A stretch of DNA of 34,754 nucleotides from Spirochaetaceae bacterium. GTDB lineage: Bacteria > Spirochaetota > Spirochaetia > DSM-27196 > SLAA01. The DNA is taken from positions 1-34,754 of the forward strand of contig PUPD01000281.1 in assembly GCA_003552985.1 (NCBI GenBank). Direction: 5' to 3'. Positions 7,593 through 14,520 of the stretch are shown one piece after another. Made by a program: the position numbers and the translations under genes. The first letter of the stretch is position 1. Each line of letters starts with the position of its first letter. A model generated the notes under the pieces. That model had not been told where the DNA came from and ran no database searches. It saw only the letters and a program-made list of their open reading frames with translations.

Positions 7593-7729
7593 CCTTCACG
7601 CAGCGGGGCTCGGCTACACCTGATCGAGTAGTGGAAATCCGACGTTTACACGCCGAATCAACGACCTAAAGAGGGTGGGGAGGTCGGGCGTTGTTTCAAC
7701 TGCTCCGAGTCAGGCGCTGGAAAGGGGGT

Positions 7730-8081
7730 TGGAGGTGGCGGGAATCGAACCCGCGTCCTAGAGTCCAAGCGGCACGTCTCTACAGGTTTAGTCGCCTGAT
7801 TATTGTTTCGGATGAGGCGGTTCAGGCGACCGACCGATCCCCTTCCTGAGCCCGCTTAGTTGTCCCTCACGCTACGCGGGCAGAACGCGAGGTAAGCCCT
7901 GGTGTCTTCCAGGCGACCACGGCATTCAGAGCTGCACGCCGTGGGCCCGTGGCCGCATTAATTATGCAGCCAGTGCGAAATCTGCTTCGTTGGCAGGTAA
8001 ATCGGTTGTCGGTTTGGGAGACGACGCTCCACCTGCAACGTACTCGCTTGCGCGAACTCCAGTCGAAGCCTTGACACCCCC
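7730..8081 (-). ncRNA. ssrA: tmRNA (ssrA), tag ANEADFALAA
   Basis: A 352-nt RNA that rescues stalled ribosomes together with SmpB. Its 5' end GGGGGUG pairs with CACCUCC at the 3' end as a 7-bp acceptor stem. The third pair is G.U, the identity element recognised by alanyl-tRNA synthetase. The T-arm reads GCGGGTTCGATTCCCGC and the discriminator base is A. The tag reading frame, read on minus from 7994 to 7962, is GCC AAC GAA GCA GAT TTC GCA CTG GCT GCA TAA, giving ANEADFALAA, a typical tag ending. The 3' CCA is not encoded (A then ACC follows), so it must be added by a nucleotidyltransferase. smpB lies 2.2 kb away on the same strand. The 87-aa ORF in the track here is an artefact. Confidence 0.95.
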
Positions 8082-8111: not shown

Positions 8112-8140
8112 AAGGTACTCGTGTAACCGTACGTTGTCAA
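8112..8140 (-). promoter_or_regulatory. Promoter of ssrA
   Basis: On the minus strand, TTGACA (8140-8135) and TACCTT (8117-8112) are separated by 17 nt. Transcription would begin about 25 nt before the mature tmRNA 5' end, leaving a short leader for RNase P to remove. Its -35 overlaps that of the divergent M23 gene. Confidence 0.7.
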
Positions 8141-8163
8141 GCCTGACGTACATCTGGTAAGCT
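8134..8163 (+). promoter_or_regulatory. Promoter of the M23 peptidase gene, divergent from ssrA
   Basis: TTGTCA (8134-8139), an 18-nt spacer and TAAGCT (8158-8163). The -10 ends 8 nt before the ATG, so the start site would fall almost at the start codon (leaderless). The -35 shares the heptamer TTGTCAA with the ssrA -35 on the other strand. Confidence 0.5.
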
Positions 8164-8171
8164 GACGCGCT

Positions 8172-9461
8172 ATGCATGTGAGAATCGCAGTTATCGCGGC
8201 GCTTGCGGCCGTTGTAGTCATAGGGTGTGCCCAGGAGGTGGTTGAAGAAGAGTTCGAGCCCTCAGAATCGCACCAACGATATCGAGAGAGCCTTGAACAG
8301 TTCGGCCTGTCGGGTACGGCACTAGCACGCGACTGGGTGGCTGCCGCAGAGCGCGCGCTCAGCGAACCGGTGGAACTGGAGATTCCTTTCCAGGAGCGGG
8401 CTGCTTTCGACCCCGCGCGGGCCGAAGCGGCTGGTTATCGCTTCGAGGCGACTCAGGGACAGCGCATCACTATCACCATCGAGATCGAGGCAGAAGCGAA
8501 CCTCGAGGGCGCTGTTGCGCGCGGCATCGGCGAGAATGCCGAAACGAACTCGGACGAGGTGTTGGATAAAGCTCCGGACGGACCCGAGACAGAAGCCGAC
8601 TTCGAAGAACTTGATGACAATTCCGGGCTTAGGCTCTTCGCGGATGTGTTTCGTGCGGACGACGATGACCTGGAAGCGCTCGAGCAGGTTGCCAGCTACT
8701 CCGAGGCTCGAAATCGGCTTGAGTTTGAGCCCCGGCGCGACAATAGCTACATTCTGCGCCTGCAGCCCGAGCTCCTGCGCGGCGGACGTTACACCGTGAC
8801 GATTGAAACCGAACCGTCACTGAGCTTTCCGGTGGAAGGCCATGATACCGAAGACATCCGAAGTTTTTTCGGCGCGCCGCGCGACGGTGGTGCGCGCGTT
8901 CACGAGGGAGTGGATGTCTTCGCACCGCGCGGCACTCCGGTGCTCGCTTCAAGCCCGGCACTGGTGCGGCGGGTCGGTACTCGGGAACGCGGGGGAAAGG
9001 TCGTCAGTCTTTACGACGAAGAGCGTGATCTTATTTACTACTACGCGCATCTCGATGAACAGCTTGCCGAACAGGGCGCCCGGGTAGAGCCCGGCGACGT
9101 GATTGGGACTGTTGGTAACACCGGCAACGCAAGAACGACGCCTCCGCACCTGCACTTCGGGATTTACGAAGCGCACTGGAATGCGGTCGATCCCTTCTAT
9201 TACCTGCACGACAAGGGCGGAGAGCCCACGGAGCCAAGTCTGGATCCGGAATTGATCGGAGCCGCCGTGGCGCATTTAGGCCCGGAGCGGCCGGTGTATA
9301 ACGGTCTTACCGCCGAAAGAACTGTAACCGCTCATCTTGGTGAAGGAACCGTGTTTCGGCCGGTGGGCGTCAGCGGTGAGTACCTGCGGGTGCGCTTCGC
9401 CGACGGGGGTCACGGGTATGTCCGCGGTAGCGAGGTGAGCCGCGTTCCGGACGCGGACTAG
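8172..9461 (+). CDS. M23 (LytM-type) peptidase lipoprotein with SH3-like tail
   Basis: A 429-residue predicted lipoprotein. The N-terminus MHVRIAVIAALAAVVVIGC is a short signal peptide ending in a lipobox-like VIGC, so Cys19 would be lipid-modified. Residues about 20-220 form an acidic region without a family I recognise. The M23 domain follows: HEGVDVFAPRGTPV (about residue 244), YYYAHLDE and PPHLHFGIY (about 326-334). These supply the zinc ligands (HxxxD, HxH) and catalytic His, so it should be an active cell-wall endopeptidase rather than a degenerate activator. The last 60 residues, HLGEGTVFRPVGVSGEYLRVRF, resemble a bacterial SH3 domain. No Shine-Dalgarno precedes the ATG; a promoter just upstream suggests a leaderless mRNA. 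Confidence 0.9.
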   Translation: MHVRIAVIAALAAVVVIGCAQEVVEEEFEPSESHQRYRESLEQFGLSGTALARDWVAAAERALSEPVELEIPFQERAAFDPARAEAAGYRFEATQGQRITITIEIEAEANLEGAVARGIGENAETNSDEVLDKAPDGPETEADFEELDDNSGLRLFADVFRADDDDLEALEQVASYSEARNRLEFEPRRDNSYILRLQPELLRGGRYTVTIETEPSLSFPVEGHDTEDIRSFFGAPRDGGARVHEGVDVFAPRGTPVLASSPALVRRVGTRERGGKVVSLYDEERDLIYYYAHLDEQLAEQGARVEPGDVIGTVGNTGNARTTPPHLHFGIYEAHWNAVDPFYYLHDKGGEPTEPSLDPELIGAAVAHLGPERPVYNGLTAERTVTAHLGEGTVFRPVGVSGEYLRVRFADGGHGYVRGSEVSRVPDAD

Positions 9462-9498: not shown

Positions 9499-10284
9499 CT
9501 ACGTTGGGTAGAGGCCCAGGACGGCTTCGTGAAGCAGCCCGTTGGTTGCGAGCGCGCTGCTGCCGGTCGCGTCATCATTGCCGTCGATGTCGGTGAATCG
9601 TCCTCCGGACTCCTCAATGATCGGCTTCAATGCCGCGACGTCCCAGAGGTTCATGATGGGATCAAGCATGATCTCCGCACGCCCGGTGGCAACCATCAGG
9701 TACCCGTACGCATCGGCCCAGGTACGAACGTTGCCCACCGCTCCGTAGAGGCTTGGCCCCAACTCCGGACGGTATCGCGCCATATCGGCAGGATCGGTCA
9801 ACAGTAACCAGGCGTCATCGAGCGTGGATACGGTGCTGACCTGTGCCGGTTTGTCCTGATAGGTGCACCCCATGCCGACCGCCGCCGACACGGTTTCATC
9901 CAATGCCGGATTATGAATGACTCCGACAATCGGTCGTTGCTCGTGCAGCAGGGCGACCAGGACGCAGTACAGCGGAACCCCTTTGACGAAAGATTTGGTG
10001 CCGTCGATGGGGTCCAGTACCCAGGTGAATGCGCTGCCCTGCGTACCGGCTTCCCCGAACTCCTCGCCGATCACCGCGTGCTCGGGATAACGGCTCAATA
10101 TGCGATCCCGGAGCACAGTTTCAGCCTCGCGGTCAGCCGCCGTAACCGGTGACTTATCGGACTTGTGCTCCACCTCGAACGCCTTTCTGAAGTAGCGTAG
10201 CGTAACCTGTCCGGCCTCATGAGCGATCTCCTCGGCGAACGCGCGGACTTCCTGCAGTATCTGTGGACTCGGTGTTTGCATCAT
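9499..10284 (-). CDS. hisN: Inositol monophosphatase family protein, HisN-like histidinol phosphatase
   Basis: A 261-residue Mg-dependent phosphatase of the IMPase superfamily. Metal-site motifs are all present: VTAADREAE (residues 47-55), GEEFGE (73-78), WVLDPIDGTKSFVKG (88-102) and LWDVAALKP (213-221). The K-S-F after IDGT is more typical of HisN-type histidinol-phosphate phosphatases than of IMPases, which read IDGTTNF. That would make the enzyme the penultimate step of histidine synthesis, but no other his gene is in the window, so another sugar or inositol phosphate remains possible. The start overlaps the smpB stop in ATGATG, and GGGGGG just upstream serves as Shine-Dalgarno, pointing to translational coupling with smpB. 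Confidence 0.75.
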   Translation of the reverse strand: MMQTPSPQILQEVRAFAEEIAHEAGQVTLRYFRKAFEVEHKSDKSPVTAADREAETVLRDRILSRYPEHAVIGEEFGEAGTQGSAFTWVLDPIDGTKSFVKGVPLYCVLVALLHEQRPIVGVIHNPALDETVSAAVGMGCTYQDKPAQVSTVSTLDDAWLLLTDPADMARYRPELGPSLYGAVGNVRTWADAYGYLMVATGRAEIMLDPIMNLWDVAALKPIIEESGGRFTDIDGNDDATGSSALATNGLLHEAVLGLYPT

Positions 10285-10730
10285 AGCCCCCCTTTGATTT
10301 CACGTGCTGCTTCACGCTTCAAATCGCGTGCCTTTATCGCTTCGCGCTTATCGTGCTGCTTTCGGCCTTTACAGAGGCCGAGCTCCAGTTTTACAAGCCC
10401 GTTCTTGAGATAGATATTGAGCGGGACCAGGGTATAGCCTTTTTCGGTTACGCGCCGGCGCAGGCGTTTGATTTCCTGTTTGTGCGCGAGCAACCGTCGG
10501 TCACGGGTGGGCCGGTGGTTATGGATGTTGCCTTGTTCGTACTCGCTGACATGCAGCCCGACAAGGTACAGCTCGTCATCACGGATACGAGCGTGTGAGT
10601 CGGCAAAGGAGAAGCGGCCCGCCTTGATGGATTTCACCTCGGTTCCCTGCAGCTCGATACCGCACTCGAGGGTTTCTTCCACTGCGAAATCGTGAAACGC
10701 TTTCTTGTTGCGTGCAAGCTTTCGCACCAT
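10281..10730 (-). CDS. smpB: SmpB, tmRNA-binding protein
   Basis: A 149-residue protein of normal SmpB length (about 150-160). It binds the tRNA-like part of tmRNA and brings it to stalled ribosomes. Family motifs include RNKKAFHDFAVEETLECGI at the N-terminus, LQGTEVKSIKAGR, LVGLHVSEYEQGNIHNH, TRDRRLLAHKQEI and the C-terminal GRKQHDKREAIKARD, the basic tail that enters the mRNA channel. The ATG is preceded by AAGGAGAAGG. It lies in an apparent operon PEGA-FGE protein, smpB, hisN, and its RNA partner ssrA is nearby on the same strand. Confidence 0.97.
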   Translation of the reverse strand: MVRKLARNKKAFHDFAVEETLECGIELQGTEVKSIKAGRFSFADSHARIRDDELYLVGLHVSEYEQGNIHNHRPTRDRRLLAHKQEIKRLRRRVTEKGYTLVPLNIYLKNGLVKLELGLCKGRKQHDKREAIKARDLKREAAREIKGGL

Positions 10731-10778: not shown

Positions 10779-12581
10779 TCACTGTGCGGCTTGATCAGTA
10801 CGGTCGCGGGGGACCACAGCGAGTCGGAACCCAAGAAACGGGCTGCTGAAATGCCGGGGCTGCACCCCGACGGCCGCCAGGGCTACTTCGTCGGGTTGAT
10901 TCGCCCAGGATCCGCCCCGGACAGCTCGGAACGGAACGGCGCCGGCGAGCTCGCTGCTGAGCTCAGGAAGGTCTCCGAGTGAGACCTGAAACGGGCGTAA
11001 AGCGTACGTGGACGGGAGGTATGGGGACGCCGTCCATTCCCAGGTGTTGCCCATGAGATGCCGAAAACCAAGATTGCCTTCCGCGCCTTCCTCGACCGAA
11101 ACCGGGCCGCTTACAAAACCGTCGCGGAACACCGGCTCGTACAGATCGGCGCCGTCGAGCAGCGCGGCAAACTCCCATTCCTCCGAATACGGCAGCCGGG
11201 AGGCAAGCTCTTCCCCGGTCTCCGCGAGGCGTTCGGAAAACCAGGAAGCGAACTCCTCGGCCACCGGGTGGGAAACATAGCGCACCGGCAGTTGAAGCCA
11301 TTCTTCGTAGTCAAGGTCGAGCTCGTCGTTCCCTGCGTTGTCGGGCCTATACTGCCCCGCCTCAAACTCAAAACCGCCGTCCGCATTCGGGCGTTCATCA
11401 GCATCCCAGTCGGCAAGGTGATCCGGAGTCACCAGCCCTTGCTCGCGGAGCTCCTCCAGATGCTCACGTCCCCAACCGGGGTTGTCCTCAAGAAACTCGG
11501 CGAACTGGGCGTTGCTGACCGGAGTTCGCATCAGCCAGAACTCGTCCAGTTGGAGCAGGTGAGGAATCCGAAGGGAGTCATCAATCGGTTCCTCGTCACG
11601 CTGCATCCCAACGAGGGCCTCGATCGGCGGAATGCGGACAAACTCAACTCCGGCGAACACCGCGGTCTGCGGTGCATCGAGCTCGAGCGGCGTTTCCTCA
11701 AGGCTGTGAGCCGCTGCAGCGGTATTCACACGATCGCGCGCCCGCCCATACCACTCGCTCTCCAGGAAGCGCTCCGCGGTTTTCTCCGGGAGCACAGCCT
11801 CCAGTACCGCGAACGCAGCATGAGTATCATTCTGAAGGTGTATAAAAGTTTGTACAATTTCAAGGGCGCCCGGGGCGGACAGGACGCCGCCGGCGCCGCG
11901 GTCCAGAGAGAGTGCACGCAGATAGTCGCGCCCTGAGCCGCTGTGCTCAAGCAGAGCGGGCGCAAGGGCTAAGAGCACGTCGAGCTGTGATGCGTTCCCG
12001 GTTTCAGCGTCGGAGCCTCCTGAGATCGAGGTCGGCACACGTGCAGGATCGGCGTACCAGGCGAGCACTGCCTCGGAAAGCACATCAGGACCGCGGTGCC
12101 GGTAGGCCGGTTGCTCCGCCAGAGCCCAATGAGCGAACTCACGGACCGAATCGGTGATCAAGTCATCCGGTTCGTCAAGCTGGAGCCTGTAAAAGACATC
12201 CCGCGAACGGGAATGGAACGGAATCCGAAACAGTTGATTCCCAACGTCGGCGCTAACGGTCTTATCCTGGAACCATGGGTGCCGCAACACGATCTCACGC
12301 GTACCGCGCTCGAGAAAGAGCTCGGCCGGAGTTGCGTCGACGCGGCGCCCGTCCACGTAGACGGCACTGCCCGGAGGGCTGGAGTGCAGCTTGACCGGCT
12401 CTCCGGGCCTGCGCAGCGCGGGCAGAAAGAACACCAGAAACAAGATTACGAGCAGCACGAGCAGCATGAGCAGCGGGAGGTAGTGCTCGGGGGCGATTCC
12501 GAACAGAGGCCGCAGCTTCACCGGTGGGGGGAGAGTTCCCTCACTGTCACGTGAGGAGGTGTCGGCCCGGTCCTTTTTCAT
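10779..12581 (-). CDS. Membrane-anchored PEGA + formylglycine-enzyme-like (SUMF1) protein
   Basis: A 600-residue protein. After a short cytoplasmic N-terminus comes one membrane helix (LPLLMLLVLLVILFLVFF, about residues 35-57). A PEGA-like domain follows (VKLHSSPPGSAVYVDGRR and PAELFLERGTREIVLR, about 64-110). A long middle region is unassigned, and the C-terminal 300 residues match the FGE-sulfatase fold: MRTPVSNAQFAEFLE, LPYSEEWEFAALL, GNTWEWTASPY, RAVRGGSW and FLGFRLA. The protein has no cysteine at all, so it cannot use the catalytic cysteines of true formylglycine-generating enzymes; an extracytoplasmic binding or scaffold role is more likely. ATG 12581 (MKKDRAD) is chosen over 12593, because a near-consensus promoter's TATAAT overlaps the latter. 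No Shine-Dalgarno: probably leaderless. It is upstream of smpB by 48 nt. Confidence 0.82.
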   Translation of the reverse strand: MKKDRADTSSRDSEGTLPPPVKLRPLFGIAPEHYLPLLMLLVLLVILFLVFFLPALRRPGEPVKLHSSPPGSAVYVDGRRVDATPAELFLERGTREIVLRHPWFQDKTVSADVGNQLFRIPFHSRSRDVFYRLQLDEPDDLITDSVREFAHWALAEQPAYRHRGPDVLSEAVLAWYADPARVPTSISGGSDAETGNASQLDVLLALAPALLEHSGSGRDYLRALSLDRGAGGVLSAPGALEIVQTFIHLQNDTHAAFAVLEAVLPEKTAERFLESEWYGRARDRVNTAAAAHSLEETPLELDAPQTAVFAGVEFVRIPPIEALVGMQRDEEPIDDSLRIPHLLQLDEFWLMRTPVSNAQFAEFLEDNPGWGREHLEELREQGLVTPDHLADWDADERPNADGGFEFEAGQYRPDNAGNDELDLDYEEWLQLPVRYVSHPVAEEFASWFSERLAETGEELASRLPYSEEWEFAALLDGADLYEPVFRDGFVSGPVSVEEGAEGNLGFRHLMGNTWEWTASPYLPSTYALRPFQVSLGDLPELSSELAGAVPFRAVRGGSWANQPDEVALAAVGVQPRHFSSPFLGFRLAVVPRDRTDQAAQ

Positions 12582-12591
12582 AACTCGGCGC

Positions 12592-12621
12592 ATTATATTG
12601 ACAAGCAGTTGCGCTTGTCAA
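12592..12621 (-). promoter_or_regulatory. Near-consensus promoter of the PEGA-FGE gene
   Basis: Read on minus: TTGACA (12621-12616), 18-nt spacer, TATAAT (12597-12592). Both hexamers are perfect consensus. The -10 ends 10 nt before ATG 12581. It lies in the palindrome TTGACAAGC-agttgc-GCTTGTCAA (12598-12621). Confidence 0.75.
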
Positions 12622-12643
12622 TTCAGGCGCCTTGTGGTAGCTT
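12615..12643 (+). promoter_or_regulatory. Promoter of the first signal peptidase gene
   Basis: TTGTCA (12615-12620), 17-nt spacer, TAGCTT (12638-12643). The -10 ends 9 nt before ATG 12653, predicting a leaderless transcript. The -35 overlaps the divergent -35 within TTGTCAA. Confidence 0.5.
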
Positions 12644-12652
12644 CGACGGGCC

Positions 12653-13642
12653 ATGAAGCAGCGCTACCTTGCGTTCTCGCGCCGGCTTGTCAGGGGCACC
12701 GAGCGGTTCCTGACCTGGAGAAGGCTACGCAAACACCGGAGGCTCGAGAAACTAAAGAACAAGAACGTGATTCTCGACTGGGTGGAGGCGTTTCTCTGGG
12801 CGGCGCTGGTGGTGCTGCTCATCAATCAGTATGTTCTACAGGCGTATCAGATCCCAACCGGGTCGATGATAGATACCTTGCTGCAACAGGACCGGGTATT
12901 CGTCAATAAGTTGGTGTTCGGTCCTGAGCTCATCCCCGGTATGTGGAAGGTGCCCGGCTTCCGGGAGCCGGAGCGCAACGAGGTTGTGATCTTCGAGAAT
13001 CCGGCGTATGTGAGTCGCGGTCCTGCGTTCGAGGTGCTGCAGCGCGTCGTCTATATGCTTACGCTCTCGATGGTCGATATTGACCGCGATGAACGCGGCA
13101 TGCCGCGTGCGCAGTTTCTGATCAAACGAGCGGTTGGGGTAGATCACGACCGCTTCCGGGTGCGCAACGGTGAGATGCAGATCCGACCTCAGGGAGAGCG
13201 GGACTGGATGAGCGAAGCGCAGTTCCAGGAGCTCGCACAGATAGATTACCCGGTTAACCGCCTGGTCGAGCCGGAAGATTACCCCGTAATTCGTGGCGGA
13301 GGGGTTGCGTCCGGGTTTCGAGACCTCGGGGTCAGTGCGCCGCAGTTCGCCCGCGATGCGATGGGAGAGATGCGAGGCATTGGGTTCCCTGATGCCGTGT
13401 ATTTCGAGAAGTGGCGTGAACAGACGGTGTTTATGGCGCGCCCGCATAACCGGGACGCGCGCCGCCAAGCGCTGCAGTATGCCAACGGGTGGTATGTTCC
13501 CGAAAACGGGATGCTCATGCTCGGGGATAATCGCGATAACTCGCTCGACGGGCGGAACTTCGGCACGGTGAGCGCCGATCGGGTACTCGGCCTCGGCATG
13601 ATCAAGTATTGGCCGCCTGATCGTTTCGGCCCAATAGAGTAA
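12653..13642 (+). CDS. lepB: Signal peptidase I (first copy)
   Basis: A 329-residue type I signal peptidase, which cuts signal peptides from exported proteins on the outer face of the inner membrane. A basic cytoplasmic segment precedes one membrane helix (VEAFLWAALVVLLINQYVL, about 44-62). The catalytic Ser71 is in QIPTGSM and the general-base Lys158 in FLIKRAVGVD. The C-terminal GDNRDNSLDGRNFGTV box is also present. Between the Ser and Lys regions and before the last box are insertions (for example ERDWMSEAQFQELAQ) longer than in E. coli-like cores. No Shine-Dalgarno precedes ATG 12653; a promoter directly upstream suggests leaderless initiation. A second, different signal peptidase follows 38 nt downstream. 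Confidence 0.95.
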   Translation: MKQRYLAFSRRLVRGTERFLTWRRLRKHRRLEKLKNKNVILDWVEAFLWAALVVLLINQYVLQAYQIPTGSMIDTLLQQDRVFVNKLVFGPELIPGMWKVPGFREPERNEVVIFENPAYVSRGPAFEVLQRVVYMLTLSMVDIDRDERGMPRAQFLIKRAVGVDHDRFRVRNGEMQIRPQGERDWMSEAQFQELAQIDYPVNRLVEPEDYPVIRGGGVASGFRDLGVSAPQFARDAMGEMRGIGFPDAVYFEKWREQTVFMARPHNRDARRQALQYANGWYVPENGMLMLGDNRDNSLDGRNFGTVSADRVLGLGMIKYWPPDRFGPIE

Positions 13643-13680: not shown

Positions 13681-14520
13681 ATGCGTTCAGGTTTCGCGCG
13701 TCCGCAGCGAACCCCGCGGAAGGGCCCGCTGGGCCGAGCAGCGAGGCGAGCGGACAAGAAGGAACGGTCACGCCGTCCTGATTTCAGTCTGTACCGCGGC
13801 CCGCAAACTCGGCGCCCGCTATGGCGGCGTATTCTGCGCGCGCTCGTGCTGCTGTTCGTCGTGTATCAGATAGTGCAGATGCTCGTGCTCCAGTCATACG
13901 TGGTGCAGTCCGGGTCGATGCAACCGACGCTCGAGGCCGGTGACCGCGTGCTTGCGCTCCCGGCGCTGTATGGCCCAGTGGTTCCGGCGATCCGGCGGCG
14001 CCTACCGGGGATCGCGGAACCGGAACGCGGCGACGTGGTACTGGTACAGCCGCCGTACTATGAGCATCCCGGCGTGATCCGGGCCGCCGCTGACCCAATC
14101 GTCCGGTTTATTACCGGTCAACGGGTTTCGCTGGTCGGTGGCAGTGAGGATGTCTGGAGATCAGCTCTGGTGGTCAAGCGGCTGATCGGACTGCCGGGGG
14201 ACGTAATCCGGTACGAGGAAGACCGGGTCTACCTCGTACCGGCGAGAACACAACCGCAGGGAGAACCGCGGTCGAAGTTCCAGCTCGCAGATCGGGAGTA
14301 TGAGATAAAGCTCGAAGAGCTTCCGGAGGCATTCGGCCCGCAGCTGCCGTTCGGCCGGACGATGGAGGCGCTCGTCCTCAACGATAACGAGTACTTCGTC
14401 GCGGGCGACAATCGTACGCGCTCTCTGGACTCCCGCCATTGGGGCGTCGTCACTTCGCAGGCGCTGCGAACACGAGTGGTGCTGCGCTATTTCCCGGTCG
14501 GCCGCTGGGGTTTTCTTTGA
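13681..14520 (+). CDS. lepB: Signal peptidase I (second, divergent copy)
   Basis: A 279-residue type I signal peptidase that differs clearly from the copy before it. A very basic, about 50-residue N-terminus precedes a single membrane helix (ILRALVLLFVVYQIVQMLVL). Ser79 in VVQSGSM and Lys166 in VVKRLIGLPGD form the expected Ser-Lys dyad. The last conserved box reads VAGDNRTRSLDSRHWGVV instead of GDNRDNSxDSR, so it retains the core. The start ATG has AAGGAAG upstream. Together with the preceding gene it probably forms an operon; the two may divide substrates, but the sequence does not show how. Confidence 0.93.
   Translation: MRSGFARPQRTPRKGPLGRAARRADKKERSRRPDFSLYRGPQTRRPLWRRILRALVLLFVVYQIVQMLVLQSYVVQSGSMQPTLEAGDRVLALPALYGPVVPAIRRRLPGIAEPERGDVVLVQPPYYEHPGVIRAAADPIVRFITGQRVSLVGGSEDVWRSALVVKRLIGLPGDVIRYEEDRVYLVPARTQPQGEPRSKFQLADREYEIKLEELPEAFGPQLPFGRTMEALVLNDNEYFVAGDNRTRSLDSRHWGVVTSQALRTRVVLRYFPVGRWGFL

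Follow-up and report, generated by a model that had tools for sequence, protein, structure and literature searches.

Two divergent genes in a Spirochaetaceae genome appear to be transcribed from two mutually exclusive sigma70 promoters which have a single -35 box in common, and both first genes are probably leaderless. We give this reading, which is drawn from sequence comparisons, a probability of about 0.86. The promoters lie in an intergenic space of 71 bp, between a minus-strand gene coding for a protein with PEGA and FGE-sulfatase domains and lepB (Table 1). The window, that is, the whole stretch of 34,754 nucleotides analyzed here, belongs as contig C292 to a draft genome of 3.93 Mb, whose closest named relatives are Spirochaetaceae metagenome assemblies, for example CSSed10_65m.

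Table 1. Promoter elements and genes at the divergent site (positions in the window)
Feature	Position	Strand	Remarks
Common -35 heptamer TTGTCAA	12615..12621		TTGTCA on plus, TTGACA on minus; same heptamer 5' of lepB in 57/69 relatives
Minus-promoter -10 box TATAAT	12592..12597	-	18-nt spacer
lepB-promoter extended -10 TGG-TAGCTT	12635..12643	+	17-nt spacer
Left arm of 9-bp inverted repeat	12598..12606		Within minus spacer; genus-specific, function unsupported
PEGA + FGE-sulfatase-domain protein, no cysteines	10779..12581	-	Start ATG 12581, predicted leader 0–5 nt
Signal peptidase I LepB (Peptidase_S26)	12653..13642	+	Start ATG 12653, predicted leader 0–5 nt
smpB	10281..10730	-	Next minus-side gene; conserved neighbor; adjoins promoter where FGE absent
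Second S26-family peptidase	13681..14520	+	Next plus-side gene

The minus promoter is formed by TTGACA (12621-12616), 18 nt, TATAAT (12597-12592) and 10 nt up to ATG 12581, and matches the consensus in 12 of 12 positions. The plus promoter is formed by TTGTCA (12615-12620), 17 nt, TAGCTT (12638-12643) and 9 nt up to ATG 12653. TAGCTT alone is a weak -10 box (3/6 against the consensus), with a TGn extension in front of it. This extension had been overlooked in the first-pass annotation, whose bases and distances are otherwise reproduced base for base. Both promoters show the features of the housekeeping sigma70 type (TTGACA, 16–18 nt, TATAAT, or an extended -10), the plus one as TTGTCA-17-TGGTAGCTT. 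No structured RNA is found in the gap by Rfam, whose only match is the tmRNA at 7727-8081.

According to our proposal, these back-to-back promoters would use TTGTCAA from opposite strands. The rightward reading, TTGTCA with the extended -10 (TGnTAnnnT), would serve lepB, and the leftward reading, TTGACA with TATAAT, would serve the PEGA/FGE gene and, probably, the smpB gene that follows. The predicted starts, at about 12585 and about 12650, are about 65 bp apart. For each of them the center of the heptamer would fall at about -32/-33, which would prevent two polymerases from using it together. Polymerase footprints should overlap almost fully, and each binding event would lead to transcription in one direction. 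Both first genes would begin about 0–5 nt from the 5' end of the mRNA and would be translated as leaderless messages.

Cysteine has a catalytic role in formylglycine-generating (FGE) enzymes. The PEGA/FGE protein, about 600 residues long, contains no cysteine. An enzymatic role in formylglycine formation is therefore improbable, and the protein appears to be a non-catalytic relative anchored in the membrane.

Such arrangements are rare in this genome. The perfect TTGACA-N16-18-TATAAT promoter is present in 6 copies, and only at this site is there an ATG 5–10 nt downstream. The pattern TTGTCA-N14,15-TGnTAnnnT-N6-10-ATG is present in 2 copies, both inside the window. In 35 related loci (625 kb, both strands counted) there are 26 matches to the architecture, every one between these two genes, and the 21 perfect TTGACA-TATAAT promoters in these loci all correspond to this site.

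Another TTGTCAA is found in the window at 8134-8174, between the tmRNA (minus strand, 7730-8081) and a gene coding for an M23-peptidase-like lipoprotein. This gene also looks leaderless: TGGTAAGCT is followed by 8 nt and ATG 8172. The same heptamer is present between these neighbors in L032, L037, L038, L039 and L064. It is probably the other shared -35 box mentioned in the first-pass annotation.

The site is conserved in most of the Spirochaetia families tested. We have gathered the DNA 5' of lepB from 69 relatives bearing this gene (38 genera, 29 families) and searched it for TTGTCAA flanked by a -10 box on either side; genomes of the same genus are not independent in the counts that follow. 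The strict architecture is found in 39 of the 69 genomes, 21 genera and 16 families (0 of 6,900 shuffles), and the relaxed one in 49 genomes, 28 genera and 21 families (1 of 13,800 shuffles). The lepB half alone is present in 57 genomes and 24 families. Among the genomes with the architecture is that of Breznakiella homolactica RmG30 (locus L057), a cultured member of the class. When 100 whole genomes of relatives are searched, 33 contain the exact pattern, almost always as one copy each and at lepB, and the reversed control gives none. An arrangement of this kind is missing from 10 of the 69 genomes, mostly from families f3, f8 and f21; the locus of a Borrelia-sized genome (f27) looks unrelated. 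We also inspected 20 more sites from a phylum-wide pattern search, nearly all at this locus, either as FGE and lepB, as smpB and the second peptidase, or as smpB beside another gene. The exceptions are G117, which is off-locus, and L215, whose neighbors were not identified by the ORF search.

Off-locus matches in G003, in G117 and at a recurrent Brachyspira-like site have other neighbors and were set aside. In the Brachyspira-like genomes (family f50; L137-L143, L145-L147, L149-L151) the pattern recurs at what is apparently one different conserved site; in L137 its neighbors are a coiled-coil protein and a secreted protein.

The arrangement has a constant asymmetry: the perfect -35 box belongs to the minus side and the TG extension to the plus side, where its constancy is partly by construction, as the scan demanded it. 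In the strict set the center of the heptamer is always T (TTGTCAA), never TTGACAA, although A was permitted, so that the perfect -35 is in every case the one directed at the FGE gene. The heptamer is preceded by C (0.81) and followed by C (0.58) or T (0.39) and then G (0.82). Outside these flanks the spacer carries little information in the column table, which is anchored on the heptamer by definition.

The starts of both genes are consistent with leaderless messages. As the first-pass annotation had stated, there is no Shine-Dalgarno (SD) sequence before ATG 12581 or ATG 12653. An in-frame TAG at 12638-12640, within the -10 box, leaves no choice for the lepB start: ATG 12653 is the sole ATG, GTG or TTG between this stop codon and the conserved N-terminus of LepB. 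The minus gene has an alternative in-frame ATG at 12593, which overlaps the -10 box and would fall outside the predicted transcript. Three relatives of genus g1 have an extra in-frame ATG two codons upstream (ATG GCT ATG), which would be too near the -10 box to be included in the transcript. Both genes have the features of TA-led genes (no SD, and TANNNT some 10 bp 5' of the start codon), with 10 and 9 nt, respectively, between the end of the -10 box and the ATG. This spacing leaves room for a few leader nucleotides, and the word leaderless is therefore not exact. Among the relatives, the minus ATG is found 5–11 nt past its -10 box in 47 of 49 genomes. The lepB ATG is 5–10 nt past the -10 box in 44 genomes, only one of which has an SD-like motif; in 9 other genomes the leader has 13–32 nt, and an SD-like motif is present in 7 of them (Fisher test, about 2e-6, calculated with 43 short-leader genomes instead of 44). 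At lepB, therefore, leader length and SD change in parallel.

Loci which have lost genes are informative. The minus -10 box is missing in all 5 loci without a detected FGE gene and present in 26 of the 28 with FGE (p = 9e-5). The lepB promoter can be scored in 4 of the FGE-less loci, and the exact heptamer is missing in 2 of them. In Treponema-like genomes without both first genes, the promoter is kept between smpB and the second peptidase gene. In L161 and L217-L223 it faces a leaderless-looking smpB as first gene; the gene opposite, where identifiable, codes for the second S26 peptidase and is leadered. In these genomes the promoter has apparently survived the loss of both first genes at this place. 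A different situation is found in genus g9 (L079, L081, L084, L085), where tandem repeated (T)GTCAACG boxes keep the two promoters apart: the shared box may have been duplicated and divided, each direction having its own copy. Given the class-wide conservation, the dichotomy of leader length and SD, and the loci without one of the genes, the claim of a common -35 box with two leaderless (0–5 nt leader) genes, already made in the first-pass annotation, is strongly supported.

The other suggestion of that annotation, a repressor bound to a palindrome, fares worse. A perfect 9-bp inverted repeat, TTGACAAGC-agttgc-GCTTGTCAA, is indeed present at 12598-12621, and it might be the operator of a dimeric repressor covering both promoters. 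The dyad is also perfect in G001, and 8/9 in G004 despite a differing loop. The left arm is nevertheless confined to genus g1, where it matches in 9/9, 9/9, 8/9 and 7/9 positions (7/9 in G002), while the other 53 anchored sites match in 3–6 of 9: the repeat is not kept across the orthologous promoters. The spacer as a whole is similar among the members of g1, and the arm is not clearly better conserved than its surroundings. No second match to the palindrome is found in the window or in the 3.93-Mb genome when up to 3 mismatches are allowed (0.01 expected in the window), which argues against a regulon. The conserved bases beside the heptamer, C before it and Y-G after it, lack dyad symmetry, and no regulator gene adjoins the site, whose neighbors are smpB, FGE and S26 genes. 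We have rejected the palindrome as a conserved feature, since the arm is genus-specific and the whole is unique in the genome, and for the same reasons a repressor acting on it is unsupported and quite improbable. A conserved activator or repressor might otherwise recognize TTGTCAA(C/T)G itself, which would then be mainly a protein-binding site rather than a -35 box. This would account for the invariant heptamer and for flanks (C and YG) conserved beyond the -35 hexamer, but not for the fixed 17/18-nt spacing to two opposite -10 boxes, the exact TTGACA on one strand or the FGE-less loci, which have no minus -10 while lepB keeps its own. We consider it even slightly less probable than the operator.

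A more serious alternative, although we do not favor it, accepts the same anatomy and denies it any regulatory meaning: these would be ordinary divergent promoters, whose overlap would simply reflect the shortness of the intergenic space. The space is in fact compact, and the separate tandem boxes of g9 indicate that sharing is not indispensable. On the other hand, the exact heptamer stays shared in 21 families, and also in places which have lost the two first genes, which speaks for constraint, not for a regulatory purpose. At the other extreme, the site might be a class-wide transcription splitter: one -35 box, present since the common ancestor of most Spirochaetia, would force a fixed, mutually exclusive division of polymerase between a secretion unit (lepB and the second S26 peptidase) and an FGE-smpB unit, and would have outlasted the loss of both first genes. 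This extension, including any purpose in balancing the two units, is rather doubtful, somewhat more so than a simple overlap.

Our reading of two mutually exclusive promoters with a common -35 box may be compared with known systems. Bidirectional promoters with a common -10 element and divergent starts 7–25 bp apart have been described (Warman et al. 2021, as cited in PMC10268837; PMC12825309). Both types would have one promoter element and two polymerase orientations, one binding event excluding the other; here, however, the -35 is common, the two transcripts would both be mRNAs and conservation extends over the class. With its two separate -10 boxes and predicted starts about 65 bp apart, the site does not belong to the shared -10 type. 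In E. coli promoters of that type, competition appears once one direction is strengthened (PMC12825309); here the minus side corresponds to the consensus. TA-led leaderless genes, as defined above, have been found in 6 of 18 Spirochaetes genomes, with an average of 3.9% of genes (PMC3160421). Both genes described here resemble them, but they are divergent, share one box and have been traced across orthologues. In Leptospira interrogans, a distant spirochaete, many mapped starts are found 0–10 nt from the start codon (PMC5243855); the starts proposed here are predicted from sequence.

In summary, shared -10 bidirectional promoters and leaderless genes in the phylum are already known. In the literature we searched we found no paper dealing with a leaderless lepB of spirochaetes or with the conservation of shared -35 promoters, and no description of a shared -35 with two leaderless genes or of such a depth of conservation. 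Bacterial promoters usually turn over fast. A promoter pair which can be recognized in 21 of 29 families, with a constant asymmetry and apparently leaderless genes on both sides, would be a rare fixed point. The site permits a direct test of whether a common -35 box couples two transcription units, and the phylogenetic series allows the leadered and leaderless states of one gene, lepB, to be compared.
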